Made by a program: the position numbers and the translations under genes. Below, piece by piece: positions 11,301-52,766 of a stretch of 64,000 bases of DNA. The notes beneath the pieces are model-generated. The model searched no databases and was not told the DNA's origin. It saw only the letters and a list, made by a program, of their open reading frames with translations. The stretch's first letter is position 1; each line of letters opens with the position of its first letter. Source of the DNA: Clytia hemisphaerica (taxonomy: Eukaryota; Cnidaria; Hydrozoa; Leptothecata; Clytiidae); assembly GCA_902728285.1 (NCBI GenBank), contig CACVBU010000472.1:1-64000 (forward strand), given 5' to 3'.

Positions 11301-12559
11301 AAATTCAACTAAAGCATCAATGATCATGCCTTTATTCAATGAAAATGAAGAAGTCACAATAGATAGACTGTCAGTCACTCCTCATGTTATAACAACGATC
11401 AATGCAGAAGATGAGCTTCCTGTCTATTCAACATTTATTTCCAATGAAATTGTGAAAGGTAGCACGCATTAATACTTTTTGGTTGATTTTAGTTTTCTGA
11501 TTCTTTAAACAAACTTTAATATTGAAGAAAATATAGTCATCTCCAGCATCAACTTTAACTTTGTTAATTTTAATTGGAGATTACTGGGTGTATTACTGCA
11601 ACCTTAGTGCAGTGGTAGAGCATCCTGCTGCGGTGCTCAAGGTTGTGGGTTCAACCCCCAGCCGGGTCATACCAAAGATTTCAAAAATGGTACTTGATGT
11701 CTCTCTGCTTGATGCTCAGCAATTAAGAGAAGGATCAAGGGCAAGTGGAGCAATCCAGGGAGAAAGAGTGGTGCCCTCCCCTACCCATCGGGTAGATAGC
11801 TATCTAAAGAGGAGCCTTTGGGTCAGCTCCGACTGCGGTTGCAGACTTCTTACTTACTTACTGGGTGTAGAGAGCCATAAAGAATAGAAATTTTTACCTA
11901 TGTTATGAATTCATGTTCATTACATCAAGGAATAAATTTCTTTTAGGAGGACGCACCAGATCTGCAAGAGGTATCGAAATGGCAACAATTGTACCTATTA
12001 ACAGAGCTGAAGGCGTTGTTTACGTAAGCAACTTCAGTTTTATGTTTAAATAAGTCACTTAAAATAGAAATGGCATTTTGACACCTTCACTAAATATTTT
12101 GGAAACTATTTCAGTAGCAATTTTCAATTTAGATAACTCCTGAAAAAGTCATTTGAAAAAAACGAAACCTTTTGGATAAGAAATAAATCAAGATAGCAAC
12201 ACACTGAAACATCTAGAAAATATCGCATTGTTTTTTATTCTGGCATCTCTTTTCAAATGTATCTGGCCTTAACAAAAACGTCATTTTCAATAAATTGTCT
12301 TGAAGTCTATATTTGATATTATTTTCTTATTCTTTCCTTTTACTTAGATGTATTACATGAACCCTTCAACACATAAAAGACAATATTTTTCACGGCTAAG
12401 AAATAATGAAAAGAATTTTATCCGTACTGTAGTTGGAACTACTTGGCTGGCATACGATGAGAACCAAAACCCACTGCTTCTGAACAATAATTATAACCTG
12501 TTGATTCTTCCAAAACATTTGCAAGATAACTTTGATGTGCTCATTACCTCAACCAAACA
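8393..12559 (+). CDS. ADAMTS exons 1-5: prodomain
   Basis: Five exons (8393-8469, 10729-10869, 11284-11458, 11947-12023, 12348-12559). Exon 1 reads in the frame [19 protein letters not shown]; exon 2 carries [10 protein letters not shown] and VEMTVCNGI, matching the conserved prodomain pattern of a glycine-rich 'C..G.V' segment followed by 'C.GI.G' in the M12B propeptide family. Exon 4 encodes GRTRSARG, whose RSAR fits a minimal RxxR proprotein-convertase site, although about 90 residues lie between it and the protease domain; a second basic cluster (KKTKSTYRR) sits in exon 6. Which site releases the propeptide is unclear. The region between the prodomain Cys motif and the protease is longer than I would expect for the family. 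Confidence 0.85.
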
Positions 12560-15500
12560 GTAAGCAATCTTATGACCTTATTACAGGTTTTGTTTTTAAA
12601 CACTACACACAATAATCAATAATCAATAGCAGATATCCGGCATACATCTAAGACATATGTGTAATTGACATATGCACTTTTACTTATGTAAAATTTCAAC
12701 CCATAAAACATCACAGCGATTGTTATGAGCAAACCTGTTTTGCCACTGTGATTTCTCTAATGTTCATAATATCTGATAATATAATAGCCAAAATTTACAA
12801 CCCACGAAACTCAGTCCAAAGTGGAAAAGTTGAAAAAGAATTGGCTCACCAGATAACATAATACCATCGCATTGAATATTATAGAGAGCAAAAATTTGAC
12901 AATGAATCTATAGATTATAGATTGTAATTATTATAAGGTTGTAAGACCGTAAACTTTAGTCTGATTTACATTGATTACTAATTTGTAATTATTGATTTCA
13001 TAGAAAGAAAACAAAATCTACCTACCGCAGAATGACACCAAGATTTGTCAAAATTCATGTTACAGCTGACGATTCTTTCATGAAGAAACATGCTGATAAA
13101 GAATCTGCCGAAAAATATATCAATAGCTTGATCAAAGGTGTAAGTGGTGAATTCTATTATGACCACTCTCTTGGTGTTCATTTATAAATTGGAGGTTTTG
13201 TTTGAATAATTTAGGTTAAAAGTGCCTTTTATTGATAATGCCACAGGTTCAAAATAATAATTTGAAATAATTTTCTCCTAACATCAATTATCTCTTCTTC
13301 AATCTGTAACAATGTAATCAAAAAATTAATCATTATTCCAGCCAATAAAAGTTTTAATGAAAACTTATTACTTTGGAATGAAATATTTCTAAGAACAAAG
13401 GAACAAAATGTATTTGATTGAAATTATCTTTCTCTTTAAGACAAATTTGGTTTTTCGTGACAAATCTTTGGATGCTTCATTCCATGTCATTCTAGAGGGT
13501 ATCAACTATGTCAAAAATAGAGAGGTTATTTTAATTACTTCAATTATCCTTTTCTCCTTGCCCTTTTGGGTGTATTTTCAGGTTTTTTCAATTTTTTGGG
13601 CAAAAAATCAGGTATCCCCTTGGTATTTGTCTTGACCTATCTGCTCCATGAACTTTCAACATACAAATAACATACTGAAACGACAACATAATTTTTTATT
13701 TTCACAAATGGAAGGCAATAAAGTTAAAAACGTTTCCTCAGCTTTTTTGTCCCTGCTCCAAATTCTGTTAATCTAAAAATTTCAGGTTTGAAAATAAGAA
13801 TAAAACAATTTAAGAACGAGTTCAGATTTTTCATTTACTGATTTTACGGTTTCTGCTTTTTGGGAGGATACTAATGAACAAACATCCGCTGTGGACATTT
13901 CCAGAAAATTTTGTCAAGTGGCTCAAAAATATGGGGAAAATTTTGGCAAGGGGAGGGGCACATGGCAGATACGGTTTCCCTTCCTTATTTTTTTTTTAGA
14001 AACCTGGATTATTCACGAATTTCTTAATTTCTCAATTTACGGACACCTGGATAACCCAGGTTTTTCAGGGTACCTCTTTGTGGTATTATCTTATCAATAC
14101 TAGTGCTGATTTTAAATGAACCGTACCTCTTTTTAATTACTAGGTTAAAATTCAAAGCAAAGATCCTAAAAAGTCTTTGAAAGATGCATGTCGTATTATG
14201 TATGATAAAAAGAAAGAACTTGGATTAGATTTCCACTTTGGTCTCTTTTTAACAAGGTAAATCTCATTTTAGCTGAATATTTTTAGAGATCCTTGGCCCT
14301 GACATCACTAATACTACCAAGGATCTGGCTGTGACTGACTTTTCTGATACCATGAGACACCAAGGTTAAACGTCAATACCTACATGATGTATTGACTAAA
14401 ACGTTTTAAAAATACAATCTTCTCAACTCCAAAAAAATCTTTTTTTTCTTGATGTGTTGCTGAGGATTTTGAAAAAAGCAGAAATTTCCACCAAGCTTCA
14501 TTTTTCTTTCTGAAGTCATGCTGGGTAAGAAAGGGGCCATCAGGTTTTAGGGCTATATTATTGATAAGACACTAGTTGTCTTTTGTCGAGGCTTTCAATC
14601 TAGAGCCTCACTTGGAAATATTGCTTTTTGCCAGAGCCAACTCTTGAAGTAAAAAAAGTGCAAATTTTTGCTTAAAATATTTTCCTTATTTTTTAGGAGG
14701 AATTTTGGTTATTCAGGTGAGATTCTGAAAGAGTAACAATACAGAAATATTTTTTTCTTGGGCAAGCCAAAAATGCAATCTTTCTTAAAAGTTTGTGCTA
14801 GATCCTAGCTAATTATTAATTAGTTAAGAGGGTTTTAAAGGATATGCTTTCTTAAATACCTGTATAGAGGAGTGCCCAGTGTCTTGATTTGAAAAGTGGA
14901 GATATGGAGTCCATATGACAACCATTTTTCTCTAATAGAAAAAAAATTCGATTTTGACCCACTAATATGGCTCAGATGAATGGCCCTTTACCAGATAAAT
15001 TTCTCCCTTAAATGATTCCATTTAGGTCAGAATCATGGTATTTAGAAAAAAAACTCTCTTCCAAAAATCAGGAGAAATTGCTCTCCTGGCTACCATGTAT
15101 TGTAATCATCACCCTTCCCCTAATATTTTATCCTTATTTAGTTATAATGCAATAAAAACTGTTTTAATTTTTCACAGGATTTACACCGTTGTATAGAATG
15201 TGTGTGAACTACAAAAGTTGTGCTCTGGTCTTTGATTCTGGAATCAGAACCTCATTCATTATTGCTCATGAAATCGGCCACAGGTCAGTTTTAACATGAT
15301 GATAAGTTATTGATATTATGTCTATAGCCGGGTTTCAATGTTTTGATTTTGTACGGGCGGACTGAGGTGGGTGGGCGATTGCGCTTGATTATTGGAGGCA
15401 ACGATTTATATGGAGACGAGTGAATATCAATCAAATTTTTGATAACTACCAGTCATATTTCTTCGAAATTTATGAATGGTAAGCCTATATACCTCTGAGA

Positions 15501-18500
15501 AAACATACTAAAATTTATTTTCAAAAGTCCTACCAGAGACTTCGTCAAAACAAAAAATTTGCTTGCCTCCAGCTAATGTTATGGTATTTTTGCCTCCAAA
15601 AAATCGGGCGGTAAAGCACGTGAGTAAACAAATGATGTATCACGAAAGCCGTCTATTGGAATTTTGTTTTTAATGTAATTTTTTGGCTGATGATTGTCGC
15701 TCTTACAGGCGACATGAAACTTTAAAATCTAAAAACTACGCAAGTCTTATTCATTAACAACAATATTATATGATGTTTTTATGTAATCACAAATGGTTTG
15801 TTTTTTAGTGTTCACAAGGAGTTTTTCAGTTATCTAATGGCCCTTATGATGCTAACATCTTGAAGCATTCGCTTTGACAAAATAATTAAAATAACAGGGT
15901 TTTTTTATCCTTAAAAGATTTCATTAGATATAATGAAATGTATACCATATTAATGATAATACCACTGCAATGACTTCACGAAATTATGCAACTTTTCTGT
16001 TTTGTTCCACCCAATACGTCACTTTTTCTATTGCTTAAGTGACGTATTGGGTGGAAAATTCTAAAAGTTCTGTTCTCAGAAGACTCTCCTGTGGTACATA
16101 TCATGAATTCGTAGGCAACGGCTCTTAAACGAAATAAAGCCATTCTATTGGTTAGAAGTGACGTAAAAATTACATTTGACCAATAGAATGGCTTTATTTC
16201 GTTTCGGAGGGAGACGGAGCCGTGGCTTGTGATTGTGGTATTAGATCTTGAATGTTTATTTTTAGTGTTGGTATAGCACACGATGGTGACCATAATGAAT
16301 GCGGAGTTGATGTCGCTCATGGAAGTGTCATGGCTCCACAAGTACACAGCCGCTTCGATCGATTTTTTTGGTCCAATTGTTCAAGAAGACAAATACATCA
16401 AAATATCAGGTTATTGAACTATAGTAATATTCTTAAAAATTTAACATTTTTTATGATGCAAGAACTTTTTGGACGTTTTTGATGGAGGTACAGTGGAACC
16501 TCGGAGCTCCAATTTTGAAATTAGGCCATTCCAGGGTGTCGAAAACACAAAATTGGGGTCTAAAGTACTTATCTGCAGACAGTAGGCCATAGAAGAACAA
16601 GAGAAAGGTTATTAAAACAGAGCTCGAGTGACTGGCAAGAGGTTAAATCGAGGTGGTGGGTACGGACTTGAAGAATCAGTGATTTATGATTTCTTTGGGC
16701 CACCTAAATTCATTGAATGGGTCAAGGGCGGGAAAACTGGAAATTTGTAGAAATAATTTGAATAATAAGACTAATAAGTGCTTGAAATAAAAATATCTAA
16801 AATTTTTTTTTTCGATTTTGGACGTCTGTGACCTGTTTAATATTCAATGTCCGCTAATTGGAGAGCTAAAATAGAGGTTTTGTGCGAAAAAATTTGTCCG
16901 CTAATCAGAGGGTCCGCTAATTGAGTGTCCGCCTTTTAGAAACTTTTTTATGAGGATTTGACTAGGAAACGGCCCGGGGAAAATGAAATTGTCCGCTAAC
17001 CAGAGGTGTCCGCCTTTTAGAGTGTCCGTTAATTAGAGGTTTTACTGTATAACTGATGACGCATTAAAAATCTAAATTGAGCGAACAATTCCACAATCAT
17101 CCACACCGACGCAATCGATCTTAAATAACCTGAATACCCCTTAACGCCCTACAGGTGGTCTTTAATTATTTACCGGGCGTGTCTAGTAATATTTTATTTC
17201 ATAATGATAATTTAACGAACAACGTCTTTGAGATTAAATGTACTTATTGAAATACAAATTGAAGTATTATCAAACGTAGATTAAAAGAAATAAGGTCAAT
17301 ATCTGTAAAGTATTTCTTTAAAAATTTACGACGGGTTTCTTTCAACGTCCGAAACGAAAAAATTTGAAACGTCCGGTAAATGATTGGATGTTTGCCGGCT
17401 CATTATTACATTTCTTGCTTAGAAAGATCATAGTTATTCAAAAAGTCATTAGTTAATTCGCAAAATGAGCACAGTGTCATAGCTCTAGTTTAGATGGTCG
17501 ACTTTCTGCCCTGCCTATTCTAATTGTTAGAGTTGGCAGAAAGTGGGCACAATGTTGGCAGTTAAAATCTTTGCTTGGAAAAAAATTGAAAGAAGACCTT
17601 GCATTGACCTCAAAAGACAGCCCACTCTATGCCTACTTTAATTCATAATTAGAATAGGTAGGGCAAAAAGTGGGCCGTCTAAACTAGAGCATAGTTACTT
17701 GTCTTTTGGAGGCTTCTATTAAGGCCTACACTAAGGTACCACTTGCTTGCGCTGCGATCGTACTTTTCCGAGCAAAGCTTTCACACTACTGGTCAAAGGA
17801 AAAATGAAACACTTTCATTGGCGCGATCAGACGTAACGGTTCAAAAAAGTTGAAATGTATTCAACTTTTTTTCGAGCGCATGCTATATTTTTATGACGTA
17901 ATCTTTTTTCCAAACAAAAAGGATTGAAGGCAAAAGGTGCGATCGCAGCGTGTGCAAGTGAAGACTGGCCTTTACTCTTTCAGAGAAAAATATTTATTTT
18001 ATGCCTGAAGATGGGCAATTTAGTCCGAAATAAATATCAATATTTGTTAGCGTAAATTTATCTAAACACAGTCTTGAGATGAAGTTTGATGGTTACTATA
18101 AAAAAATCGTAAGAAAATTGGCAGGGATTTATTTCTCTCTTATTTCTCTCTGGATATTTTGATGTCTTCTGTTTTGAAAAAGAATCGAAACCCCATCTCA
18201 TTATTTGTAAAATATCACAAATTCTTTAACATTAAGAATTCTATTTTGCAGGTACTTTTCATGTTTGCTAAAAGAGAAGCCACCCAAAATCAACACATCA
18301 GCATTGGATCTTCCTGGAGTAACACACAATTTAGATGGACAATGCAAATACACTTTTGGTAGAAAGTACAGTGGCTGCTTGGGGGTAAGCTTTTTTATTC
18401 ATAAGCAAATGACACGGACATATAGTACAACCACTAGTTGTAATACATAGTAAAATGCGACCACTATTAGGATCATTTACGATTATAGTACTAATAATCG

Positions 18501-21500
18501 TAGAGGAAGGAAGGCAATTTCTAATGAATTACGATAGGTCCTCCGGAAATGTACTCAAATTCCATGAGCGATAGTGAGAGCAATTTATTTACACCTCGGA
18601 ATGCAGGAGGGAAGTTTATTACATCATGTGTGTGATTTCCTTCCTACACGATTATTCGTACTAAACGTTGTAATCTCATAAAGCAAAAAATGAAATTAGG
18701 AATTAGTTTTTTGAGTCTAAAAGAAAAAAGAAATTTCATCATACCATAAATAACGAGTCTAACAAGGCCTCGTGAATAATTTTATTAGTTCTTATTGTTG
18801 CTTTTCCTTGGAGTCCATTGGAACAGTTTTTGGGGGATTTTCATGGAGCTCTGTTAACAGGTTCACTGCCAAGCAATTTTCGGATATTGAAAATATGGGT
18901 TCTTGGAACTTTATCGAAAGTCTGTCTTTCAGAGGCTCCTGTGGCCTCAGTTTTGCTTCAAATACCAAAATCGTACACAGTCGACGCAGAATTTCACGTA
19001 GATACCAAAATTCAATAGAATATAAGCTAAAGTATCAGTTAGTTCATATTGCCTGGACTACGTATCAAAAGTTATGAACCTTTGAAGCGATACCAGTATT
19101 TTAACCCTTTACTAAGAATATACTCATAATAATTGTGACAACATCAATGCTAACCTGTCGTTACCCCTATTATGAAAACGGGGTTCTGTGGTACAGTATC
19201 GCCAGCTTGTTTTTTATCGCTTGCAGAACCAACACAAACAACCCTATTCATACCAAACATATTCCTCCACAGTCTCCGGAGTGTCTTATTACCGTAAATG
19301 AAAATAGCTGCATTTATTCCACCGTGAGTATGTATTGTCGAGTATCCCAAAAAACGGATAAACTCGAAATGGCCTTTCCACATCTCGTTGGAACCTTCAT
19401 GAAAAGTATGAAACAGAACATTCCCTGTGACATAAACGATTGCTATGGCAATCATCGAGAATAAAATCTTCCTCGCAATGCCTATCACGTACTCGTCTCG
19501 GGCTCTCGATCTCAAATTCTCACTATTTGCGCGACTTCTTTTCCTTTGTAGTACGGTAGCAAAGGAAACATAGTTCCTGAGTGCAAGTAGAAAGAATATA
19601 CAGTCTATACTCATCACTATTAAACTTGCCGTAAACATAAATTGATAAATGCTCGCCATAACATATAATGCACCATCCATTACAGCCAGCGATACAACAC
19701 CAGTCATGATCAAAATCATTTTCTTTAATGGCATCTCTTGGGTTCTCCTCATGCTTTTTACACCGACATGTCTTCCTGAGGCTATTATAACAACGATAAA
19801 CCCAGAAACGTGTCCCGTGAATGTCAACTGAAACAGAGTCACCATCTCCAAGACTAGATTGAATTCACCAGCATAAATAGTCAATAGTAAGGTCGAAAGG
19901 ACTGTAACAGATACTGCCCCAATTGTGTCTGATATACTTAGAGCGAAAACTTGTTGTATTGATCGAGTTCTTCTGAGTTGTTTGGTTTTTATTAATCCGA
20001 TTATAACGAAAATATTCAGCAGAATGGAGACTACACCATTGATAAGGACATTGTAAATGATAAGGATTATCCGATGATGATTTGCCATATGGTAGCGCTC
20101 GTAGCTTGTTTCAGTAACATTTTCAGGCATTTCTGTGCTGTCTTGGGAAAGTTCTCGTCTTTTTCTAAAAATGGGGATCTTCGTTCCAAAAAAAACAAAC
20201 TACTTTCTGATGCGATTGTAAAACCCAGTTATTAAATCTCCAGAGATTTAGATTTTTTTTTCACGTCCGATATTTATTTGGTTGAAAGCTACCAAAAGGT
20301 TTTTCTTTTATATCACCAAGAATGTTCACAGATTTTCTCAACCGTCAATGTTTTCTGCTTGTTCAATATGTTTTTTCGGTGCTGAAATGTTGATACCCTA
20401 TTTCAGTCAAGCATTTATAGTGGCAGATGCATTGAAGCACTCCATTAATGTGTATTAAACGCCCCTTAAATGAAAATCATGACACATTAAATATATAGTT
20501 ACACTGAGTTCTGATGATGTTGTAATTTTTTAGATCACTGATTATGTCTTTTTGGAGTAATTTCCTACGCAGGAGAGGGAACAAAATGATAATATAACAT
20601 GTAGCTTTTAATAGTGTATTGCACAATTTTAGGTGCCCACCCACTGTTAAAGAATTGTGTAAAGCTTCAAGGATATGGTCTAAGAAAATTCCACTTGTAG
20701 TGCGTCGTGGTCAGTCAAGGGCTTTTTAACCTGTTAAACGAAAACCGCTTTTTTTATCGCGTTTTAACGTCTGTTACTTTTTGTCGCGGAATCGGATGTT
20801 CGTTTCAAAGTGTAACTGACCATGTAACAAATAAAAAGTTTGATTCCGATCTGACTCCGATTAGAAATTACGTCACAAAAAACACGACTTCTATTGCCAT
20901 CAGCTTGCTTGGATCTTGTTTAAGACTGAATCCCCAACCCCATTTTTTCGAAAACCAAAAACAATTTTATTTAATCCTACAACACATCTTTCCATCATTC
21001 AGTTTATTTTCCCTTCCAAAAAAGCGTGATCTATTGTTTTATTGTTTTATAAAAGTGAACTTATTAAATGTAATGACCGAAGATTTTCCAATGAAATAGA
21101 CTATTTAAAAATAAGGATTTTTTTTGGCTCGACAATGAGTTATCGCATGACTTCTCGTGAAATACTCAATTATTCTACTCAGTCCGAAACTCGTAAAATA
21201 TTTATCGTATAACTATTACTTATTTTATAGGACTAAACCCAGCTGATTCCATTACAAATTTGTTATAAGAATGCGAAAAATCTCCTAAAATGATAAGGGA
21301 AAATGACGACTAGAAAATTGTTGCTTTCAAAGGTTGAAATAAACGAAAATGCATGATTAATACCATCCGAAAGAGTACAAAATCTTGAGCAGAAAATAAA
21401 TGTGTTACATCTTTTTTTCAGATCCGAAGCCCTGATCAATATTGTCGATTTTTGTTTTGCCGTGTACCGAATCAGAAGAATAGATGTTCGTATTTGTCTC

Positions 21501-24500
21501 TCCCTCCAGTTGATGGAACTATATGCGCCAAAAATCAGGTGAGAAAGTGAACAATGATATTTAAGCGGAGTCTCCATTATTCGAACACGCATGGGGAACT
21601 CAATTTTGTGCGAGTTAGGGAAATTACCGCCCGACTTCGTCTCTCGAACCCTTAGCGGGATTAAAAGATAAGGAAAAAGGAAAATTTTGTTAATTTTTTA
21701 CCCTTATTGGGACATTACGATCTTTCAAGGTGCAAAAAGTTGAAATTTTTCTCTGCGATCTTTGATGAGACTGAGATTTTTGAAACCTACCTAGCACATA
21801 CCTGTAACCTTCACTTGCCTAGGTCCCCCGGGCACCTACCATTTGCTTTCACACAGCACTTGTAAACAAAAGAAAGAGCAACTCTCTGCCCCTCCCGCGC
21901 CATGCGAGCATAAAATTGGTTTGATAATTCCGCGCCTCTTTTCTTTATCAAAAGAATGAATAGAATATCTTTAAAACATAAGCTCATCAATTTTCATTGG
22001 TATTTTCGAAGATTCTTCAAAATTTCTTAAAATTATTTCATGTGGCAAGTTCAATGCAGATGTCTCTTTTTTTCCTACTTTTCCTATTTCTTTACTATAA
22101 ACATGTTATGGTGCGACTTTTATTCGTTTGTCTTTTTCAAGTTTATCATGTTACATTAGTTTTGGCCTATTATTATAAGTGGGAAGTTCATCAGAAAATA
22201 AAGAAATAAAACTTGAAATAAATTAGATTTGAGATAATTAAATAAACTATAAACCCTCATAGCGTGTAAGGGTACACCCTCTTCTTAAGTAGAATGGGGG
22301 GGGGGAGGTGGAACTGATAATTCATAATTTTATGGTATCATTGGTATCACCTCCGTTTGGAAAGTCTTTTTTGAGGGGGGGGGGGCTACACCCAAAAAAA
22401 TGCAAATGAAAGCCGGGAGTTAAAATACAGCCACATATTTGATGTATTATGAGGTAGAAATCTCGATTCGAAAAGTTAAAATAAATTTGCATTTTGCATT
22501 TCACTTTTGTTTCGATCTTCCAGTGATGTACAAATTCGTTTAGGCCTTTAACGCCGTAAAATAAGACTCGTTTTGTCTTCTCACCTTACACGTAGCTCAA
22601 GAAAATGAACGCCAAATGTTTAAAAACGTCACTTTGACACTGTTTTTAGAGCATTTTCAACTGTTAATAGCAAATTATCCCCACATAAGCTCATTAAGCT
22701 CAAAAATGTTTTTTTATTCCAGGTATTGTATGTTTATAAATTTAGGTTGAATTCGGATCCTAACCTAAGATTACTCTAAGAATATTTTAGGATAATCCCC
22801 CCTAAAAACAATTAAGAAAATTCATGATGAAATGGAAAAAACACCATCTTATAATAAAAGTATGTAACAGTTGTTCTTGGTACTATTCTCGTATTTCATC
22901 TTCTAACTAATTTTATTTTATCACCACTTTCCATTTTCCAGTGGTGTGTTAAAGGCAAATGTATTCCTTTCGGGCGTCTAACGCCCACGCCCGTCGATGG
23001 TGGCTTCAGCAAATGGAGTGCGTGGTCGAGTTGCACAACAAGATGTGGCCCTGGGGTATCCAAAAGATATCGAAAATGTGACAGTCCAAGGTATGTTTTT
23101 CGTTCATTATTATATATATGTGAAGAAATTCAAAGAATCCCTGTCCAACTATCTTCTTTCAGGAGATTTGGGTGGCAGAGCAGCATATGCATTCCGTCCT
23201 TATTAGGACTCGTCAGCACTGCATACTGCACCCTGGCTAGGCAGATCGAATTGCCTAGCGTCTCGTGTCATGTTTCACAGCTCAAAGATTTCAAAGCGGT
23301 AGAATCGCTGGTAATGTTCAGTTATTGATTATTAGACAAGCCGAATGCAAAATCTATGTAGGAGAACAGATATTTATTTCAACGGCAATTATCTTTTTAT
23401 AATTATGAAAAGATAATTACCGTATCATAAAAATCTTTTCTCCTACACAAATTTTGCGCTCCTCTTCTTTACGCTACTGTTTATAACTCTTAACAAAAGT
23501 TGGCTTGTTTGGAGGTGGGATGAATCGCTTAAAAACGTTGCACTTGAAATAGTTCGTGACGAATAAAATACACGTTTTTTTTTTTATTAGAACCTAGTTT
23601 ATAAGAACATATAGGCTGAAATTCGTCGAAAAATTAAGAACATCTTAAGAACATGCCCAGCCTCAGTTTGGAAAAAAATGACGAGAAACTACAATTTTTC
23701 CCTCTTTTTAAGCAGTTTTAACCGAATTTAGGGGTGGATCTTCAAAAGTCGAGAGTCGAATATTGTCCAAATTTTGCCAAATTTAAGTGCTCTTTATTTT
23801 GTATCATATTGTCGATTAAGAGTAGTCTGAAAAATTAAGAACGCATTTAAGAAAATTTTAGGCTGAAAATTGCTAAAAAAAATAAGCACATCCAGGCTCA
23901 GCCAAATTTTAGGTGTTCTAATAAAAAAAAAAAACGTGTATCTAACCATAAGGCGACGGAGTGTTCGAAATATTATCCTACGTCTTATGATCATTAAGAC
24001 GGAAGATGACTATGATTTTAGAGAGATTATGTATCGGAGATATTCTACGGCTACGGTTGCGGGATTGAACCAAAGGCGATGTCGTTGTCTACTTTGCTCT
24101 TTCTTTGCTACTTCTCTAGACCAATATTTGGTGGTAAACCATGCAATGGGAGTAAAACGGAATGGAAAATGTGCCAAGACTATACAGTAAGTATGAACTT
24201 TTATTTGAGTTTATTTGATATAGACACTTGCAATCCAAAACCATATAATGTTGATGTCAACTTATCATATTTCAGAATGAATTAGGCTTATAACTAAGAA
24301 AATGTTTTTCCAATGTTCAGTAGCTACCTTGCTAGCTAAAGGCTTCATCTGCATCCCTTTTATATAAAAAATGTAAAATATTCAAGGATTCGTGAAGCCT
24401 ATGCTAACCTTTTAATGTCGAAGGGTTGAAAGCAGATTAAAAGTATAAAGTAGTTTGGCTTGCTACGAGAACTGTCGTGAAACCTTAAACCTGATTGTTG

Positions 24501-27500
24501 GAAAAAGGCTGTAATTTTAGTCTTCACGAGAGTTTCTTGTTGACGGTAACTCTCAATATTATCGAATAATGGAGCGCATCGAATAGTAGAACGTCGAATT
24601 AGAAAGCATCAACTGTATTATTTTTTCCATTCTTCACAGCCCTGTCATATCCATAAAACATTCGAGGACCAACGAGACGATTCATGTTATGCATTTGGTA
24701 CTGGTTGGAAGTGGTTCAGACCTTCTGATATCAGTCGAAGATGTAAGTAAAATAAGCGAGCATAAATGTTTTTCAGAAGAAAGAGGCTGTAGTGTTCGGT
24801 AATGGCTGGCTGGAAGTGGTTCAAACCTTCTGATATCAATCAGAGATATAAGTAAAAATAAACGAGCATAAATTAATGGACTGTTTCAGGAAAAAATATG
24901 CATTACTGATAGGAATGAAGACACTGGAAACCTGTCTATCGCTTTAATTTCTTCTTTGAGGTATGACAAAACTTTATGCCGGAGATCTTTAGGAACGATA
25001 TAGACCTATTATTGGTAGACTTAGTCGCGAGTGAGCTTGTTTGATAATATAACACACGACCTTCTTTCGACACCGGACCGATAGATTTTTGCTTCACTGA
25101 TGCATAATCTAATTTTTGTTAATTTTTTCTCCAGTAAGAAATTTATCATTCGATTTGAATTTTGAAAATGGCTTTGGTTCTTGGACACACGCACCAAACA
25201 CTACCACAAAATGGCAGCTCCACCAAGGTGCGACACAGACCCCTGAAACTGGGCCCTCCGTTGACCACACCTTTGGCAACAAGACAGGAAAATATATGTA
25301 TTTCGAATCTTCATATCCACGATTGAAAGGTGACAATGCGATGCTGGTTAGCCCAACTATTTTGACACCGGCTACTTGCGTCCGGCTGTATTTTCACATG
25401 CTCGGCAAAAGGATTGGTAAGCGATTTTTACGTCATCAATTTATAATGAAGCTTATGATGATTGTATGAAACTTACTGTGAAGCAAATTGTGTTTTTTTT
25501 CTGAAAATCTTAGTCTAGCTGACAGCGAATTCATATTCTTTTAGGAAAATATCGTGATTTAAATCTCTGTACCGCCGTTTGCGAAAATAAGATCCCAATT
25601 ATTATCATCTCTAGAATTCAGGATTTGATTTTCGAGAAACGGGTTAACGCTATTTTCTGTCAGGAATAAAAGGAAAAAAATTTTCGTGTGTTGTTTTTCA
25701 GGTACGTTGAAAATCTTGCAATTAGACGTTAACAATACAATCATAAGTGTGTTATGGAAGCGCTCGAGTAGTGCTGGTAAATATTGGTACAAGATCCAGT
25801 TTGATGTCTTTTACCATAAGGAATACAAGGTAATTTTTAGGGCTGAGCTGGAGTTTGTATGAGATACTTCACCAATTTGCTATTTGAAGCAATATTAAAG
25901 ACCAACCAAGTTAAATAAGACTCCAACTTGTCCTGATATTTAATGCAAAAATTCATCTCGGCTTTGGATCACGAGATTTACGGCGTCCACGTTTCGAGAG
26001 ATTCATTTCTCATCTTCGGGTGGTTGTTTTATTGATACATCAATTGAAAAGGGCTACATACACTACACATTATTTGTTAGACAATATATTGACAATGTAT
26101 TCCAACCTGCCGGCAATCATATTGAAAAGATGTTGGCAATATTCACAGATTTAAAAAGCCCGTAGGGCTAGATGTCGTGCTTTGGCTGGAAAGTGCCGTA
26201 TCTCGGTAGGAAATCCTACCTAGGTCATGTGATATTACAATAGAATTTAAGCGCATGTACAATCAGAAGCTTCGCGGCTTTTCGAAAACAATTGCAACTT
26301 TATTTCTTGAGATATTCACTTTTTTTTAGCGCGCGATGGCTTAAAGCACGACATCTAGCCCTTCGGGCATATAAATCTTTGTCAACTCGATTGTCAATAT
26401 TCCAGAAATATTTACAGTTTACATGGAGAAGATTTCTTTTTATATTAGAAAATAAGATTGCTTCAAAAACCAATCAAATATCAAGTTGACATGTTGACTC
26501 TTCAAATTTCAGATTGGAATTGAAGCTACACGAGGCAGCAGTTATTTATCTGATTTTGCCATTGATGACATTGAAATCACTCCCGGACAATGTCTGGATA
26601 GGCGAGCAGGTAACTTGATAACGTTGAATCTCTGTTATTATTATTCTATTCTTTATGTATTCATCAAAACCGGAATTTTATTTCAAACTTAAGGTGTTGG
26701 AATACTGATAGACTACTGTCCTGGAAACTGGTTATATTATCAACTATGGAGGATTGTTTCAGGAAGAGTTAGCAGATTAGATTAGCAGATAGATTCCATA
26801 TATCAATTATATTAAGGGAGAAGAGACACGGATCTTGACATTTTTATCGCAAATCGAAGTACTACTTTGTTCTATGTATATTAATTGAGTCTTTTGCCCA
26901 TAGAACCTACACTGGATGACACATCACCTTGCAGACTATACTGCCGACATCCTCAAAAGAATTACTTACAAATCGGCAAAGACGTCAGTGACGGGTTGAA
27001 GTGTAGTTCAACGTCAAGTAATATCTGCGTCGACGGAAAATGTCAGGTGAGATTCGAAATTGTATTTTATACCGAACTCTCAAAGAAAAATACACTCATA
27101 TACAATCAATGGGAAGGGGGTCGGTACTAAAACCTCGAACTTAACGATGTTTAGTGACGTGGTGGTATACCCATTGACTTCTAAGCCCGAAGGACTAGAC
27201 TCGAGACTCCTGGATGTGACATGAAACCACTTATTTCCCGTCCAGAACGCCCGCGCGTGGTTTTCACACAAAACTAAAATATATCGCTAGATTAAAAAAA
27301 ATACAGTCCTCAAAAACAAAGGAACCGCTATGTACAATCCGTCGTCGTGATTATGGCGCGTTCTGGACTCTTCGGGCTTTAAAGTCAAATCACTCAAGCT
27401 CAATAATTCCATAGTGGGTAATCCTAGAAACTTGAAATTTGGTCACTGACCTTTACAATTCCTAGACAAAGCTATATCCGCCATTTTTGATCGGTGTTTT

Positions 27501-30500
27501 TTTAAAGTGGTATCAAAGATATTCGACGAAAAGTACACCTAGCGTTCTCCATGGTCCACCGTTCTCCTTACATTTACACCGCTATTGAGTAGTGCTACCA
27601 TTAGCAGGCCATATTAGGGTAGCGTCCGTTGGTGGCCAAAAAGGTCACTTTTTCTTGTGTGTTTTCCACTAAAAAGGCTGTTTTTACCAAAATTTCAGTA
27701 CTTTCAGGAGAGGAAGCGTCTGATAACCGGACGCTAAAAGGGCGTGAAAAACGGCCTGATTAGGGCTTTTACCCTTACATTTTCAAAAAACTCTGATCAA
27801 AGATTTTGCTTGGCCGGCATTGAGAAACTGCCTCCAAGGTCTATAGCTCAATTTAGCACACCAATATTTTGAAACATCTTAGTTTTAAAACTATTGCATT
27901 GTAACGTCTTCAAGATATACTGGGTAATGAGTAATGTAATTAACTTGAAATTTGGTACGTTTAAGGAGCACATCAAAACTTTGAAATATCCTAATTTTGA
28001 AACTATTGTATTTCACTATTGACGTTACAAGATATACATCAAACCTAACCGGACAAGTCCACCTCAATATCAACAGCTCCTAATATGAATTTTTTTTAAC
28101 AATCGCTCTATTTTGATTCTCTCACCCTATCTATAAGTTAACCTAGAAATCTAAGCTAGTTTGATTCAGTCACTAGGATAAATCTGATGGTAAGTTGTCA
28201 CTGAATAACTAAGGCAAACTTAAAATCCGTAAATATAAAAAATCTTTAAAGCCTCGAAAGCGCTATATTGCCATTAGCCGTGTGTTCTAGCCTTGTGAAT
28301 ACGGGCTTAGTTAACTAGGCTATCTATAAGTAATCCTTTAAGTATTTTTCAATCTTAATCTTTCAGCGTTTAGGATGTGATGGACTGATTGGGTCAGATA
28401 AGCAGTACGATAAATGTGGTATATGCGGTGGAAAAGATATTGATTATAATTGCGCGCAACAAGAATTCAACATAAAAGTCCAACTTACTAAGTGTAAGTA
28501 GTCTAGCTACCAAGCATAGTCCATGCATGTCTAGTGGGGGCCTTCCGAGGGTACAAGATACCGGAAACCAGTAATTTTCATTATAGAATACTGGGGTACC
28601 GGCCAAAAATTTCTTGATACCGGTCAAAAACGGTCGATAAGTACCGGAATACTGGAAATTCAGCTTTTCAATACTCGACTACCAGGCATCTTTCTGTCAA
28701 ATACCGTTCAATACCGGATTCTCGGAAGACCTCTGTTCTTTGACATGTTTTGGCCTAAATCTCCCCGTTTTTTCTCCTCGGCTTTGTTTTGCGATCGGAT
28801 TTTAGAAATACAACATTTTAGAAAGAAAAAAACTGACAGAAATTTGCTCTAAAGTGCTCAATCTTTTTGGAAAAAGGATATTGATGATTGCTTCCAAACT
28901 TTTTCATTCTTTCTTAGTATCACAACCTATATTGAAAGTTCCAGAGATTGCTTCTGAATTTGTCATTACCAAAACAACACCATCTGATGTCAAACTTGGT
29001 ACGTGTTTTTACTACTGTTTTATCTATTTGCTTATAGTTGATCATTTCTTAAAGTTCTTCCATGCTTTAAACAGTGCAAGAAAGGCCAAACACTGTCTGA
29101 ATTAGCATTGATTTTAGCCAAACGCTTCATTTAAAATACTAATGATTGGATAACAGTAAAGTGAGGAGGTTTGAGGTGATTTTGAGCAGTGCCGAAAGTG
29201 AACACTTTCTTACTTTTGGAGATGAACTGCCAAATCTTTGAAACTTAGAAGTCAAAATATGCCTTCCCTATTGGTTTACCAACCCTAAATAACCTGGAAT
29301 AACTAGGAAACATATCATGGTGGTGGAAATGTTAAATACCACCCCTTACGTATACCGTACTTCGTATACGACCCGTACGTAAATTAAACCAAGAAGGGGT
29401 CAAATCAGCTTGATTTACGAACTCCAGTAACAAATATTCTCCCATTTTTACTTCCCTTCAAAAAAGTCACTGTTACAAAATTACTGCATACTGAGATATC
29501 TTGATCTTTTTTTCTCTCCAACTAAGAATTCTTGGTAAGGATTAGCTTTTGAGTATAAATTTGCGCAAGTTGAAACTCGGCTTTTCAGTGAATTTATATC
29601 TTTAACCACTCAGCTTAGCACAAGAAACAAAGATCTCTTTCATTTGGCATTTCTTACTGTCAATCGGGTAGTAGTACACGCTAGATCTGTATCAATCCTT
29701 CTGGTCGGGCCGGTTATTAGAGCATTTGCTCGTGATGTCTTTTCATTGAAATGTACCAGTAAATTTCAAAAGCTTAAATTCAAATATGGTTAACTGAACA
29801 GAGAAACTAATAAGCACACATGATAACGGCTGCACATACTTCACTGACACGCACGTTAATTTGTACTAATATCAAAGAACTCGCATAATTGAAATGCACT
29901 CTCAAACACTTTACTGATGCACATAACCAAGCACTTATCCACCAACAATTAATTGTAAGTAACTATCTATTTATCGCACTTATAATATTAAATTTTTAGT
30001 TTACAATAATATCTAACCACTGACCTTTATATACCCTTTACTGCGCGGTTGGTTTTTGAAGGACTGGTAGTGAATTTACAAGGAAATGACGTCAAAATTC
30101 TTTGTCTATGAGAATGCCAATGCAACAAATTCAGACATTTTGACGTCATTTCTTCCTGGTAAACTCGAACCTAGTCTCTTCGTGCTTAATTTTAAGGATT
30201 AAAAATATGTGTATTCTGGTCTGACCTACCTTTGCCGTGTATTTTGGTTTAAGTCAAACAAAACTCAAGAGGTAAAATGCACGTTTTTTAAAAATAAAAA
30301 ATCAGAATAGTTTTTCTCCATTAAATCATACGATATTCTTTAACTTTTTCGGGATAGAATATTCTTACAGTAATACTTAAATTTGTAATACACACCTGAA
30401 ACATAAAATGGAATTTTTGTTTAAAAATGCTCTACCAATGACATCATTACGGTTCTATTGCCAATTTCTATAATTGTGATATTCTTAAGGGCTACTTAGA

Positions 30501-33500
30501 CTACACAATATATTGACGAACAATATTTGACAATATCGTTTTCGGACTGTAATGTACGAAGTAAATAACAGGTGCTCTCTTATAAAAAAGTATTTTCTTT
30601 CTGTAAACAATCCCCCTATAGTGTTGGAAAATTGCAAATCAAGCTGTCAATATAATTGCGGAAGCCTTTTCAATATATTGCCGGCACTCAGCAATATATC
30701 ATCAATATATTGCCTGACAATATATTGTTTAGTGTATGTAGCCCTTTAGCATATTCTTGATTTTTTGGTCAATTTCTTCATGGACATAAAGTATCTTATA
30801 AAAAACCGTGTAATTACTGATTATACTCAAAAAGAAAAGTAAAATGAAAGATTGTCACAACTATCACGATTATTATCGTAAATTACAAAATAAATTACAA
30901 TATTACAAAATTATTATTATTATATTACAAAATTACAAAATATTACAGTATATTACAAAATACATATAATTAATATAATACATCCCTCTTTTTTATCAAT
31001 ATTTAGCTATGAAGGACAATGTAAAGAGAGCTACGTATTACTACGGCCACTACCCACGTACAGGCTACGACTGGTATTATTTTACCATCAACAAGGCTAC
31101 ATTACGCTACGAGATCCCTTACAACCGCACTGAAAGGGTTTATATAGACAAAGCTAATGGCATGGACGCCGAAGTTCAGGTTAGTGAAATCGAGTTTTGA
31201 ACATTTATCCCCGTCGTTAGGCAATAAGCATCTGTCTATGTTAAGAAAATTCGAAGAGAAGTTATCAAGGAAGTTTAATGAAATATATCTTTAGTGAAAG
31301 GATGCAGATTGTTCATCAGCTCCACAAATTTATCTTAAACAATATCACAGGAAAAAGTCATCAGTTCCCACGGGGGAAAGTCAAATTAAAAGGGTGGGAA
31401 AGTACATGTTTCCCACGCGTGGGACCCTGCAATGTTTTACTCTGGTGGGAAGTGTCAAATACCACTCTATAAAATCCCACGTTGAAAAAACAAATTCCAG
31501 CGGTTTAAAACTAAATTAACATGCAAGAGGTGGTTGCTCTCGACATTGTGCTGAGAATAGTGAAAATGAAAAGCACACGCCTAAATTTGAACTTCACACC
31601 CAGCTATTGCCAATTATTTGATAAATTGTTAAATGTATTCGATCATTCGTGAGCATTGGCTCGATAGATCCCATTCGTTCTGTCATGTACTTGCGCTACT
31701 TTGAGAATCCCGGCACTTTGTCACAACAGCGGAACAACGACCTGATACCGATTGAACGGCCGCATGGCGGATGACGATTCCACTGAGCCCTTGCGACGCA
31801 AGTCCATTGCGAACGAACGAGGCCGCCCTTGCGGGACGCCTCACCTTTAGCTTTGTGTTACACACTGATCGAATACACTCTTATAATGTTAATGATTTGC
31901 ATACAATCTGAACAGTTTTGACCCAATTTTCACTTGTGTTTTTTTTTACGCATGCGTAGTACAAGTATGGGTATTTAATTGTACTTTCCCACCCTATATA
32001 TTGTACTTTCCCACCCTATTAATTTGACTTTCCCACCCTATTAATTTGACTTTCACACCCTATTAATTCGACTTTCCCACCCGTGGGAACTAATGATTTT
32101 TTCCTTTGTCTGTCTTGACCTTCTGCGTTTTTAGTTTTGTAGTGTAAGTTTTCGTCGACTATATAGTTGCTAAGTGTTTATTTGAAATTCACACCTAAGA
32201 TATATCAAAAAGACTCTAAAGGGGTTTCCGCAGTGCGATATTAGTAATACCGATGTATCGATGTATCAAAATATTTTAGATAAAGTCCAGGGTGTGAAAT
32301 CGGAAATCCTAAAGATTCAAATTTGTACCCGAATTTTATTGCAGGGAAATTCCAATGGGGGAAATTCCACTTTGCAGCTTGAGAAAAATTACGCGGAAGA
32401 AATAATTTTTAAAATTTCCAGCGCTGGAAATGGGGTTTTCCCACCCGTAGGATCTGATGACTGTGTATTCTTCTCAATTTCATTGTTTTTGGTGTTTTTC
32501 TCTTTTGTAATTATCGGGCCAATCCAATTCTTTTGACAAAATGTTTTTTGATGACGTCACTATCATGCCCAAGGTGAGCAAAAACCGAAAATTTCCTTTG
32601 TTCTTATAGATAGCTATTGTAATCTAACGAAGGCTTTAGAAAAAAGTTCCCTGAGTCTAATATGCTTATTATATCCTAAACATTCAATAAATTACGGTTT
32701 AAACGATATATTTGACATAAAAAATAAATTTGTATTTTCGATAGTTCTGCCGCCTTTTTTAAAGAAGGTTGAGATCTAGGGACCAAGGCCAGCAAATCCT
32801 TTGACACCGACACATAGTTCTGACATACAAAGTTACAATGTTTTCTCCTGTCGCCATCAAAAGCAGTTATACAAAATAATATACAAAAATTATTTTTCTG
32901 TTCCTCTTCCTTCTTTCTGACCAATGTGAGAAAACTTAAAAATTAAAATGATGAGTAAGCAAACGATATCACTCTTATTTAAAAACAAAACCTTTAAAAT
33001 AAAATTAAAAATGCATTTTACATGTTGGCCGTTGAACTAGTTTAATAATTTAGGCATAAGTATTAATACCAATATACTTTATGAGGCATCTTGGTAGCTT
33101 TTCTCTTAAATGTTGCTCATGGAAAGATTTCAAACAAACCATTCTCGCTTGGTTCTTCAGGCTGATGTTATGTTGACCTTTCAGCTTCTTGAAGTTCAAT
33201 GTTGTTACGTAAGTGTTATCAAACTGCCACTTATTGGAAACGGTCATCAATTCATTCATTGTCCAGTTAAAACAAATTATACGTGAAGTTAAATTTATGC
33301 GTTCAATCACCTTTTTCCCGGATACTACCTCGTACATATCCCCTGATGAATACACATAAAGAAACTTCTTCACAAAATTAGAAATGACCTGGAATTCTTC
33401 ATTGTTGTTTGGTATACCTTCTATCGGGTAGTGATTAACGAGTTGAAGGCCCTCTTGAGTGAATTCTAGCAATCGAGCTTCATCATTTGTCGACACTGCA

Positions 33501-45500: not shown

Positions 45501-48500
45501 TAGACCCTAAGGTTGGAGAATAACATAATCTGGATTGAAACTATCGGCTATTTTGCTCTATTACGTGATTCATAAAAAACTAGTGATACATTTTTTCCTG
45601 AAATCCCCCGTCCCTTTATTTGCTGATGCGTTAAAGCCCTGACCAAATAAAAAACTGGAAAACTAAAATTTGACCCCTGTATGGATATTTTTAACAGACA
45701 GGGGTCAAAGTCCAGCTTATTTAAGTGTCTTTGATTGAGATAAAAAATGACGTAATCTCAATTTAAGGGCTACTTAGACTACGCAATATATTGACGAACA
45801 ATATTCAACGTACCGTAGTACGGAGTAAACAACAGGTACTCTATTATAAAAAGGAATTTTCTTTCTTTATAAATCCCCCTATATTGTTGGAATATTGTAA
45901 ATCTAGCTGACAATAATTGCTAGCACTCAGCAATATATCGTCGATATATTGCCAATAATTGCCTGACAATTGCCTGACAATATAATGTGTAGTGTATGTA
46001 GCCCTTTACGCCTATCAAGTTTCAAGTTTCTTCATTTTTCTTCCACACAGCTAATTTCTCCTGGACCACGTTTAAACAAGACATCCATCAATCTAACCTA
46101 CAAATTCTACATTCCGATTGGATTAAATTTGACTAATGATGTGTACTCTTGGATCATGAAAGGATGGACAGAATGTTCTGCACCCTGCAATGGCGGTAGG
46201 TCGATTTATTTTCATTGTAAAATTTCCCTATCAACCCTTGCGAAAAATCTTTTTTCCAACTTATATTAGAACGCTACAACTCGAAAAGTTGTTATTATCT
46301 TAAGCAACCTCTCCTTTGGAACCCGTATACTTGCTCATTCTTTATTTTCAAATCGCTCTGCAAATACAGGTTGTCTTTTGACAGCTCCAGTCTTTTTAAA
46401 GCCAGTCTTAGACCATGTTCACGGGGACGGCTAGGCTACGATATATCTACTTCATTCAGAGCTTTAGACCATGTTCACGCGCTACGGTTCCGTTTCGCTC
46501 CGAAACGAAATGAAGCCATTAATTGGTTAAATTCATTTTTTATGTAACTTCTAACCAATAGAATCACGGAACCATAGCGCGTGAACATGGTCTTAAGCTC
46601 TGAATGAAGTAGATATGTCGTAGCCTAGCCGTCCCCGTGAAGGTGTCCATCAAAGAGCTATTTTCGTCTCAAAGTTCAGCATAATTCAATCAAATATTAA
46701 ATAAGAATGTGAACTTTTCCCTTTAAAACGAAATTCATTGCTTTGACTACTGAGATTATGCTCAAGTCCAATCGCTTTAAGCCGTGAGCCACAAATTTTC
46801 CTACCATCATGTGGAAACCATGGTAGCGTAGTAAGACTAATTCCCTAAAGAGTGGTTTCTACATGAAAACACACTGAAAACAAAATGGACTTTAGTATTG
46901 ATCCTTACATTCCAGGTACGAAGGAAGCACAATATCATTGCTTGAACTTGCGAACGAATGAAGAAGTTGCTTCTGGAAATTGCTCCTCAGAATCGGTCAA
47001 ATTATTACCAAAGCTGATGGCCTGTAACATACATAAATGTGTCACAAAGTGAGTTTAGTAATCGTTTATTATAATAGACGATATCGGCTTTCCGAATTAT
47101 CCCCGAATGATTACCCATGATGCATTGCGCAAAAAAATTCACGGACGATATTGACTTTCCGTGATTTTTTTGCGCAATGCATCATGAGTAATCATTCGGG
47201 AGAATTCCGAAAGCCGATATTGTCTATTATTACTGTTTCTCCACTTATTTTGGGACTGTGTTTTGAAGGCATTTTAGAAATTGCGACAGAGCCTGATTTT
47301 CAGGCTGAAAAATTCACTAAAATCTTCTTACCATGCTCATTTTCTCGCTTCTGACTTGAATGACATCATACAAATCGACTATGTTGGTCATTAGCGTAGC
47401 CAGGGGGGGGGGTTTGTGTAGGAAAGCAGATTTTTATTACACTGTTCATACTTTATATAAAAAGATAATTACAGTGCCATAAAAATATGCTCTCCTACAC
47501 AAATTTTGCGCCTCCCTTGGCTACGCTACTGGTTGGTCATGGTTACCTATCGCCTCGCTAATCACTTCCTAAAGATATCCGTATTAATGATAAAGCGAGG
47601 AGGCGCCCCTCTTATGCTATGACAAAGCAAAATATTTCTCGCACAGCGCTGAAAGGAAGAAAGTTGCTTTTTCTGTAGGCAAATGGCAGGAGATAAGTTT
47701 ATGTGCTTTAAAGGTTTTGTAAGAGCAATCAAGTAAAATAGGTACGTCAAATGATACCCTGAAGAAAAGTATGAATTTTCTTTCTACAGATATGAATACG
47801 GGTACACCCGTTGGGGTCGTTGTGATAGATGCGGACAAATAGGCTCCAAAAGCCGGACAGTGTTTTGTCTGAAGAAGAAGGAAGGTGAAAAATCAATCAA
47901 AGTGAATGATACGTTGTGCAGTAAGGTTGCCAAGCCATCAACTCAAATGAAATGCTTCCGTTATTGTCCAAGTAAGTCAAAACATCTACAAATACATCAT
48001 GTGCGTAATTCATGTTTACGTCGTTTTTCGTCACCTGATGACGTCATCATCCTTTGAAAATGCCGAAAAAGTAACACTTCCTACTTTTTTTCATTTTTTT
48101 CAAATGATATCTACCACTGGTCAAAATTTCAAAGTTACAGCACTTGTCAATCTTCAGATATTAAGGGGCCTTCCCTATTAAGAAATAGATTGATATGCTT
48201 TATAGATGTTAACTGAAGCATAAAAACATTTTTAAAATTACACAATTCTCTATGAGGTTTCACTTTTGTGTTTTCGAGTATAAAAAACAAGCCCGGGATC
48301 CAATCTTCTGATTACAAAGAGCGAATCTATGTACTTGCACTTTTGAGGACGGTAAAGTGACTGAAGCGATTTGGAATAACCCGCACTTCTGACCAGCAAA
48401 ATCGAGGACGGTAAAAGTGCTGATTTACCGTCATCCTCAGCAGGTCAGGATGTAGACAAATTAGAACCTTACCGTATCCGCCGCAGAAAAACACACATAC

Positions 48501-51476: not shown

Positions 51477-52766
51477 ATGAGGAATTTATCATTATGTGCT
51501 TTTTTCCTATTGGCTGTAACCATGGTAGCATCACGATCAATTGAAGATAGCTCTGGTACGTCTTCACATTATTATTGATATAAACCTCCGACATACAGAA
51601 GTTTTCTTCCCCGGTAAACAAAACTCTTCCTTAGATTTTCAACATCGTATTTTAGCTCGTGGTTTTGTGGGAAATCTTTAAGGGGTAATGAAACGTTCTT
51701 AATCGAATACCAACCCCCTCAAAATTTAACCCTGATGATTCCTCTTGATTTATTCTAATCTATTTTTTTTGAAAAACCTTTTTAGAGCAAGGCTACCATT
51801 CGGAAAGTTTTCAGTAATACTCCCGAAAGTGTAATTTGTAATTTCCTCTATAGCGTCCCTTTAAAAGAATACTCCACTGACACAACACTACTGGTTTAAG
51901 GTCACCATAACTTTGAAGATATCGATAATAGTATATCCTTAAGTATTGAAATTTAAAAAAAAATCAACGCCACAAAACTTAGCCCGTTTATCAGTCTCTC
52001 CCTCTTTTGGCGTTGAATCTTTCCTAGCATATCTCTTTCTTCAATCCATCAGGTCACAACGATTGAAAGATTTTGTTAAGCTCATCATAGACCTACAACA
52101 TAATTATTTTCACAATATTGATTTTCAGCTCAAGGTGACGTCATAATGTCAGATGACGCTTTGCAAGCTGTTTACAACGATATCTTAAATACAGCCAATC
52201 AAGTAAACTCAGCTACCAGCGAACTGAAACGTGCCGTAGGGAACCGGTACTCGTCTTGTAATCCGGATGTCGAAGATTGCGGAAGTGAGAAAAACAAACC
52301 ACACATCAGTCAAATAAATGCTGACGCTGCTAAACGAGAAGGTTATGGAAACGGATTCAGCCCTTGGCTTCACCGTTACAAAGATACCGCATCTGAGAGG
52401 GTCCCTATCTACCATTTTGATTCCAGGGCTGCCAAGAGAGTTCCAATGTATCACTTCAAGGATGGAGCGTCGCCAGAGAAGAGAGCTCACAAAGTTCCAA
52501 TGTACCACTTTAAGGATGCAGTATCGTCTAGGAAGAGATCGCGCAATGTACCAATGTACCACTTTAAGGATGTAGAGTCGCCTGAGAAGAGAGCTCGAGT
52601 AGTTCCAATGTACCATTTTAAGGATGTAGCGTCGCCTGAGAAGAGAGCTCGAGTAGTTCCAATGTATCACTTCAAGGATGTAGCGTCGCCAGAGAAGAGG
52701 GCTCGAGTAGTTCCAATGTACCATTTCAAAGACACTAAAGCTGAAAAGTTCTCGTTTTACCATTGA
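51477..52766 (+). CDS. Two-exon secreted precursor with seven YHF repeats and dibasic sites (neuropeptide-precursor-like)
   Basis: Exon 1 is 51477-51555 (MRNLSLCAFFLLAVTMVASR, a clear signal peptide, phase 1 end, donor GTACGT); exon 2 is 52129-52766 after the acceptor ATTTTCAG. The join reads through as ...SSAQGDVIMSDD, giving 238 residues. After a spacer with KR sites and two Cys (YSSCNPDVEDCG), the C-terminal half holds one VPIYHF and six VPMYHFKD units, most separated by SPEKR, SSRKR or AAKR. Cleavage at KR would free peptides such as VPMYHFKDGASPE, with N-terminal ARV, SRN or AHK extensions on others. There is no amidating Gly before the basic sites. The last copy ends TKAEKFSFYH at the stop. 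I do not recognise the peptide family. Role as neuropeptide or other secreted peptide is inferred from layout. Confidence 0.85.

Follow-up and report, generated by a model that had tools for sequence, protein, structure and literature searches.

A predicted ADAMTS gene with an internal MAM domain

A stretch of 64,000 nucleotides from the genome of the hydrozoan Clytia hemisphaerica (contig CACVBU010000472.1, positions 1 to 64,000; hereafter, the window) is firmly predicted to carry the gene for an ADAMTS metalloprotease in which a MAM domain lies inside the cysteine-rich (Cys-rich) domain. When 18 exons located between 15178 and 48885 are joined at GT-AG junctions, the reading frame is open all the way from the active site of the metalloprotease to the end of the protein. 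The complete 826-residue model corresponds to residues 363-1188 of an NCBI protein annotated as 'ADAMTS 2-like isoform X1' (1188 amino acids; hereafter, P0001), whose truncated organism name, 'Clytia hemisp', was read as Clytia hemisphaerica. Over the 431 residues searched, P0001 is 100% identical to the model, which had been spliced independently of it. The motifs from which the original prediction was made, SCYAFG...WKWFRPSD, PCRLYC and DKCGICGG, are all present at the positions given, along with the three MAM exons, and every one of these exons is bounded by AG on the acceptor side and GT on the donor side. The exons identified in the window are listed below; the exon numbers 16, 20 and 21 follow the counting of the original prediction, and an exon end at 13004 is left off the list because it differs from P0001 (116 of 127 residues agree over a two-exon stretch).

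12348-12559, + strand: ADAMTS exon preceding the metalloprotease domain; translation found in P0001
14144-14256, + strand: ADAMTS exon, metalloprotease domain; translation in P0001, where Pfam Reprolysin covers residues 257-445
15178-15283, + strand: start of the zinc site (HEIGH); H392, E393 and H396 invariant in 11 sequences
16266-16409, + strand: remainder of the zinc site (GIAHD) and Met-turn (VMAP); spliced model and invariant alignment columns
18252-18384, + strand: start of the disintegrin-like region; Pfam PF17771 at P0001 residues 466-536
21422-21538, + strand: disintegrin-like region; spliced model and Pfam PF17771
22942-23090, + strand: last part of the disintegrin-like region, then the beginning of the central TSP1 repeat; Pfam TSP_1 at P0001 residues 551-602
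24120-24186, + strand: end of the central TSP1 repeat; spliced model
24640-24742, + strand: exon 16, where the Cys-rich domain begins (Cys616, Trp625), ending in phase 1 with T; Cys616 aligned with Cys in 10 of 10 homologs
25135-25416, + strand: MAM exon 1, starting in phase 1; splice sites, Pfam MAM, open frame
25702-25829, + strand: MAM exon 2; splice sites, Pfam MAM, open frame
26513-26609, + strand: MAM exon 3, ending in phase 1; splice sites, Pfam MAM, open frame
26904-27046, + strand: exon 20, continuation of the Cys-rich domain (PCRLYC); Pfam ADAMTS_CR_3, profile positions 41-112
28367-28493, + strand: exon 21, last part of the Cys-rich domain (DKCGICGG) and start of the probable spacer; Pfam match, spliced model
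28918-28998, + strand: probable spacer exon; spliced model, with a weak Pfam spacer match below the cut-off (E-value 0.0019)
31007-31179, + strand: probable spacer exon; spliced model, Y955 and E963 invariant
46051-46195, + strand: end of the probable spacer and start of a TSP1-like repeat; assigned by position and by eye
46916-47048, + strand: end of the TSP1-like repeat; assigned by position and by eye
47790-47971, + strand: TSP1 repeat; Pfam TSP1_ADAMTS at P0001 residues 1076-1127
48713-48885, + strand: last exon, PLAC-like Cys cluster (by eye, without a Pfam match) and stop codon

The catalytic domain is of the Reprolysin type, with the HEXXHXXGXXHD pattern (HEIGHSVGIAHD), the Met-turn VMAP and a Pfam Reprolysin score of 54.2 bits (cut-off 20.8); in the assembled exons, the Astacin profile scored only 13.8 bits, below its cut-off of 22.5, compared with 39.4 bits for Reprolysin. 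The zinc-site columns are invariant in an alignment of 11 ADAMTS sequences and, the zinc site being intact, the protein is likely to be an active protease. Pfam also recognizes in P0001 the disintegrin-like region (PF17771, E-value 3.9e-16), the central TSP1 repeat (TSP_1, E-value 1.6e-9) and the Cys-rich domain (ADAMTS_CR_3, 24.9 bits against a cut-off of 21, only from profile position 41), for which ten cysteines can be counted, namely C616, 813, 817, 837, 845, 850, 855, 868, 871 and 880. The following region scored 19.0 bits with the spacer profile PF05986, under the 23.6 cut-off, and its position fits a spacer. The propeptide profile Pep_M12B_propep had no match in P0001 at an E-value of 0.01, and the annotated 5' end of the gene, where the protein starts with MAAVHIQAEDL and the frame upstream reads KLISLCFMAAVH (window 924-1320, + strand), may be incomplete.

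A two-cysteine MAM domain inside the Cys-rich domain

The three exons 25135-25416, 25702-25829 and 26513-26609 together encode a nearly full-length MAM domain: the Pfam match (PF00629) extends over 156 residues and profile positions 2-157 of 158, with 104.9 bits against a cut-off of 26.4 and an E-value of 4.7e-30, and in the complete P0001 the domain occupies residues 643-798 (102.4 bits). The closest relatives by sequence in the NCBI protein search are MAM-LDL receptor class A proteins (P0003-P0005, 32-35% identity), and the relatives with solved structures include the enteropeptidase heavy chain (E-value 4.2e-21) and MDGA1 (E-value 5.5e-21). Among the cysteines, only Cys716 and Cys798 are retained, aligned with the usual C-terminal pair of a MAM relative, so that the domain departs from the pattern of four cysteines and two intradomain bonds seen in neuropilin-1; because the family is defined by its profile, the domain is referred to here as a two-Cys MAM variant. 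Four potential N-glycosylation sites are found within it.

The position of this domain was examined in a MAFFT alignment with 10 other ADAMTS proteins, from which the MAM domain of the query had been removed; the 10 proteins were all the search matches, other than P0001, with PF01421 in their domain lists. Cys616 of exon 16 is aligned with the first cysteine of the Cys-rich domain in all 10 proteins, Trp625 is aligned with a tryptophan in eight of them, and Cys813 and Cys817 are aligned with a CxxxC motif in all 10. Ten conserved cysteines characterize the ADAMTS Cys-rich domain in the available part of a review of the family (PMC4448532), and in the Clytia protein one of these, Cys616, precedes the MAM domain and nine follow it, which bears out the original placement of the MAM domain inside the Cys-rich domain. 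In ADAMTS13, the Cys-rich exosite consists of residues 471-474, and the bonds 450-487, 483-522 and 508-527 hold the domain together, according to the accessible text of PMC6706451. Counted back from Cys483 in the aligned ADAMTS13 sequence (P0019), residues 471-474 directly follow the conserved tryptophan, and the MAM cassette (residues 635-803) begins about six residues past the positions aligned with them. By this alignment, the MAM domain interrupts the loop that bears the Cys-rich exosite in ADAMTS13; the length of the loop, between the Cys616 position and CxxxC, is variable among the 10 homologs.

The MAM domain is present in only one of the 11 ADAMTS proteins scanned, the Clytia protein itself, and the earlier assertion that known vertebrate ADAMTS enzymes have no MAM domain at this place agrees with its absence from all 10 others. 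The three protein searches with the gene gave 10, 1 and 14 matches, and the named matches include neither another MAM-containing ADAMTS nor another hydrozoan ADAMTS, although a search that requires shared 5-residue words does not imply their absence. No description of an ADAMTS with a MAM domain was found among the open-licence papers listed, nor is one given in the available portions of PMC12225738, PMC12549020, PMC9083331, PMC549037 and PMC4890752; the part of the ADAMTS review at hand names PLAC, GON-1, CUB and mucin modules, not MAM (PMC4448532). As a predicted architecture, the MAM-containing ADAMTS of Clytia is a real new variant of this family.

Conservation of the architecture on two haplotypes

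A second contig, C504, is collinear with the window over ∼59 kb and contains all 21 compared exons in the same order, with every one of the 21 AG acceptors and the 20 internal GT donors preserved. Among the 17 aligned pieces of at least 1 kb, 15 are 93-98% identical to the window and the other two 91.9% and 84.0%; given these identity levels and the extended collinearity, a recent paralog was rejected in favor of the second haplotype. The MAM domain shows four amino-acid and five silent differences between the haplotypes (nonsynonymous proportion, pN, 0.010; synonymous proportion, pS, 0.046), compared with 10 and 14 (pN 0.006, pS 0.034) in the other 657 residues of the model, and these counts, although small, do not suggest decay of the MAM domain.

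If all three MAM exons are skipped, the T that ends exon 16 joins AA, which on both haplotypes yields an in-frame TAA stop where the two flanking exons meet; the frame is kept when MAM exon 1 alone is skipped or when exons 2 and 3 are skipped together, and is shifted by the other partial skips. The direct joining of exon 16 to exon 20, named in the original prediction as a competing form, would thus yield a truncated frame, and the other competing form, in which the MAM exons belong to a separate transcript, is contradicted by the open frame and by P0001, which includes the MAM domain. Because of the stop at the flanking-exon junction and the presence of the MAM domain in P0001, both a separate MAM gene and a splice form devoid of the whole MAM domain were rejected.

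Exon 16 has a further peculiarity: its 3' end with the splice donor (24701-24767) is duplicated in the next intron (24806-24873) with 88% identity, and the exon also matches twice on the C504 haplotype.

Origin of the MAM cassette

The MAM cassette consists of 507 bp with a phase-1 intron at each side. Shuffled modules usually take this form, flanked by two phase-1 introns. Via PF17771, five further ADAMTS loci were detected in the 417-Mb Clytia genome, and none of these has a MAM domain within the 20 kb read per locus (best match with an E-value of 4.1). At three of the five (C735, C230 and C419), a phase-1 intron, with both donor and acceptor read, lies between the equivalent of Cys616 and CxxxC. 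Given that the intron occupies the same place in three MAM-less paralogs, an existing intron as the landing site is the simplest reading, and the MAM domain was probably acquired by exon shuffling into such a phase-1 intron.

The genome search for MAM, performed exon by exon with 150 of the 156 candidates scored, so that identities and counts are lower bounds, gave at least 76 matches, of which six come from the two haplotypes themselves and the remaining 70 show 28-45% identity; these values lend no support to the idea that the cassette was recently derived from another MAM of Clytia. Dense clusters of MAM matches occur at C435:577060-635504 and C598:14190-71317, perhaps representing one very long gene with many MAM domains, or else an array. 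The contig pairs C435/C598 and C330/C504 look like uncollapsed haplotypes; the MAM profile matches of C435 and C598 correspond, and DNA collinearity was examined for C330/C504 only.

Interpretation and alternative explanations

The observations are best accommodated by a scenario in which a Clytia ADAMTS gene received, through shuffling, a complete MAM module of phase 1-1, probably by way of a pre-existing phase-1 intron in the loop that separates the first two cysteines of the Cys-rich domain. The Cys-rich sequence on either side was retained and, with ten cysteines remaining, the domain probably folds around the insert via bonds equivalent to Cys450-Cys487 and Cys483-Cys522 of ADAMTS13, which by alignment and counting would be Cys616-Cys817 and Cys813-Cys845 in the Clytia protein. 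The MAM domain would then project beside the exosite loop and, inasmuch as it adjoins the loop that touches the substrate in ADAMTS13, the best guess for its most likely effect is a docking surface, either additional to the original one or replacing it, for a partner in the matrix or on the cell surface; target recognition by the protease may be unusual. For this statement as a whole, from shuffling into the loop to fold closure and docking next to the exosite, we estimate a probability of roughly 0.6. A more specific proposal, that the Clytia lineage extended or replaced the substrate-binding loop with a whole MAM domain, so that the shuffled-in module sets the choice of target as a natural domain-insertion exosite, can be offered only tentatively.

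Several observations weigh against this scenario. The AlphaFold model of the whole protein, built from an alignment of 14 rows, is poor (mean predicted local distance difference test score, pLDDT, 57.1; predicted template modelling score, pTM, 0.36), with pLDDT under 50 over residues 620-658, 665-699 and 780-810, and its quality in the MAM domain and the start of the Cys-rich domain is too low to show closure of the fold around the insert. The Pfam profile ADAMTS_CR_3 matches only after the MAM domain, whether the query contains the MAM domain or not, and exon 16 alone has no Pfam match; because the profile match does not cover exon 16, the placement rests on the MAFFT alignment. Two of the four usual MAM cysteines, the N-terminal ones, are replaced, two of the five paralogs (C18 and C462) lack an intron at the insertion site, and the haplotype differences in the MAM domain (four and five) are few. 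Finally, no signal peptide is evident by eye in P0001 and, should the annotated N-terminus be the true one, secretion would be in doubt. The Foldseek search with the whole model had ADAMTS13 (6qig) as its first match (E-value 5.0e-30), which is mainly a statement on the ADAMTS part. Most of the 50 VIA-align rows cover only the catalytic domain or the catalytic domain with the disintegrin-like region, and 6qig is the sole one that spans residues 256-1002, with a root mean square deviation of 17.2. That no MAM structure is among the 50 Foldseek matches listed is not evidence against the MAM domain.

The loss of two MAM cysteines, the variable length of the loop among the 10 homologs and the finding of the architecture in this gene only, among protein matches with shared 5-residue words, would also be compatible with the MAM domain being a passenger tolerated in a permissive loop at the surface, where it would hardly affect the choice of substrate. 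This appears unlikely, albeit worth keeping in mind, considering that amino-acid differences between the haplotypes are low relative to silent ones, if few in number, and that four potential N-glycosylation sites suit an exposed, secreted domain. Dimerization of the protease through the MAM domain, including non-covalent dimers, finds a precedent in meprin beta, where the MAM domain contributes to dimerization according to the accessible text of PMC9848320, but the disulfide link in meprin involves a fifth cysteine and the neuropilin-1 MAM is monomeric, as stated in the available part of PMC5104691. With only Cys716 and Cys798, aligned with the usual C-terminal pair, and no spare cysteine, a meprin-like disulfide dimer is disfavored in the Clytia protein, and dimerization is doubtful overall. 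Equally doubtful is a facultative MAM domain, part of which is left out in a splice variant: the in-frame partial skips and the name 'isoform X1', suggestive of further annotated isoforms, would allow it, but skipping of the whole cassette introduces a stop and the partial skips would break the MAM fold. An artefact, with the MAM exons coming from another gene or from an assembly error, is conceivable to the extent that the architecture is known here from the genome sequence and an annotated protein; the agreement of both haplotype contigs in exon order and in every splice site compared, the frame open over the junctions and the identical NCBI protein make it highly improbable.

Other features of the window

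Downstream of the ADAMTS gene, at 51477-52763 (+ strand), a start resembling a signal peptide (MRNLSLCAFFLLAVTMVAS, at 51477) precedes an open reading frame (ORF) with six copies and one near copy of VPMYHFKD, flanked by basic residues. It looks like the precursor of a secreted, neuropeptide-like repeat peptide; a Pfam search with a guessed join of this ORF gave no match. The Rfam search of the window yielded no match either.

Comparison with known systems

If the proposed scenario holds, the Clytia gene places a complete adhesion module inside a disulfide-bonded domain that, in ADAMTS13, holds a substrate exosite, while the type of intron probably used for entry survives in three paralogs, making this a clean case for asking how mid-domain exon shuffling can alter protease specificity. 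As a hydrozoan kept in the laboratory, Clytia should be amenable to removal of the gene. In vertebrate ADAMTS, as described in the available text of the review, the extra modules come after the spacer (PMC4448532). ADAMTS13 (PDB 6qig), the first structural match, has the same order of metalloprotease, disintegrin-like, TSP1 and Cys-rich domains as the Clytia protein, followed by a spacer, which in the Clytia protein is probable from its position, and the Cys-rich cysteines of the two align (P0018 and P0019 in the alignment); unlike the Clytia protein, it has no MAM domain in the Cys-rich loop and carries two CUB modules (PMC4448532, available part). NCBI names the gene ADAMTS2-like, and with ADAMTS2, ADAMTS3, ADAMTS14 and other PLAC-bearing members, the Clytia protein shares the C-terminal TSP1 repeat and, by eye, a Cys cluster resembling PLAC; it differs in the MAM insert and in the lack of a Pfam match for PLAC. 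The closest MAM domains by sequence belong to MAM-LDL receptor class A proteins and enteropeptidase, which are not ADAMTS. The astacins of Hydra and the meprins likewise combine a metzincin protease with a MAM domain, in the former case also in a hydrozoan; these belong, however, to the Astacin family and, as far as the accessible text of PMC9848320 describes them, carry the MAM domain after the catalytic domain, whereas in the predicted Clytia ADAMTS it interrupts the Cys-rich domain.

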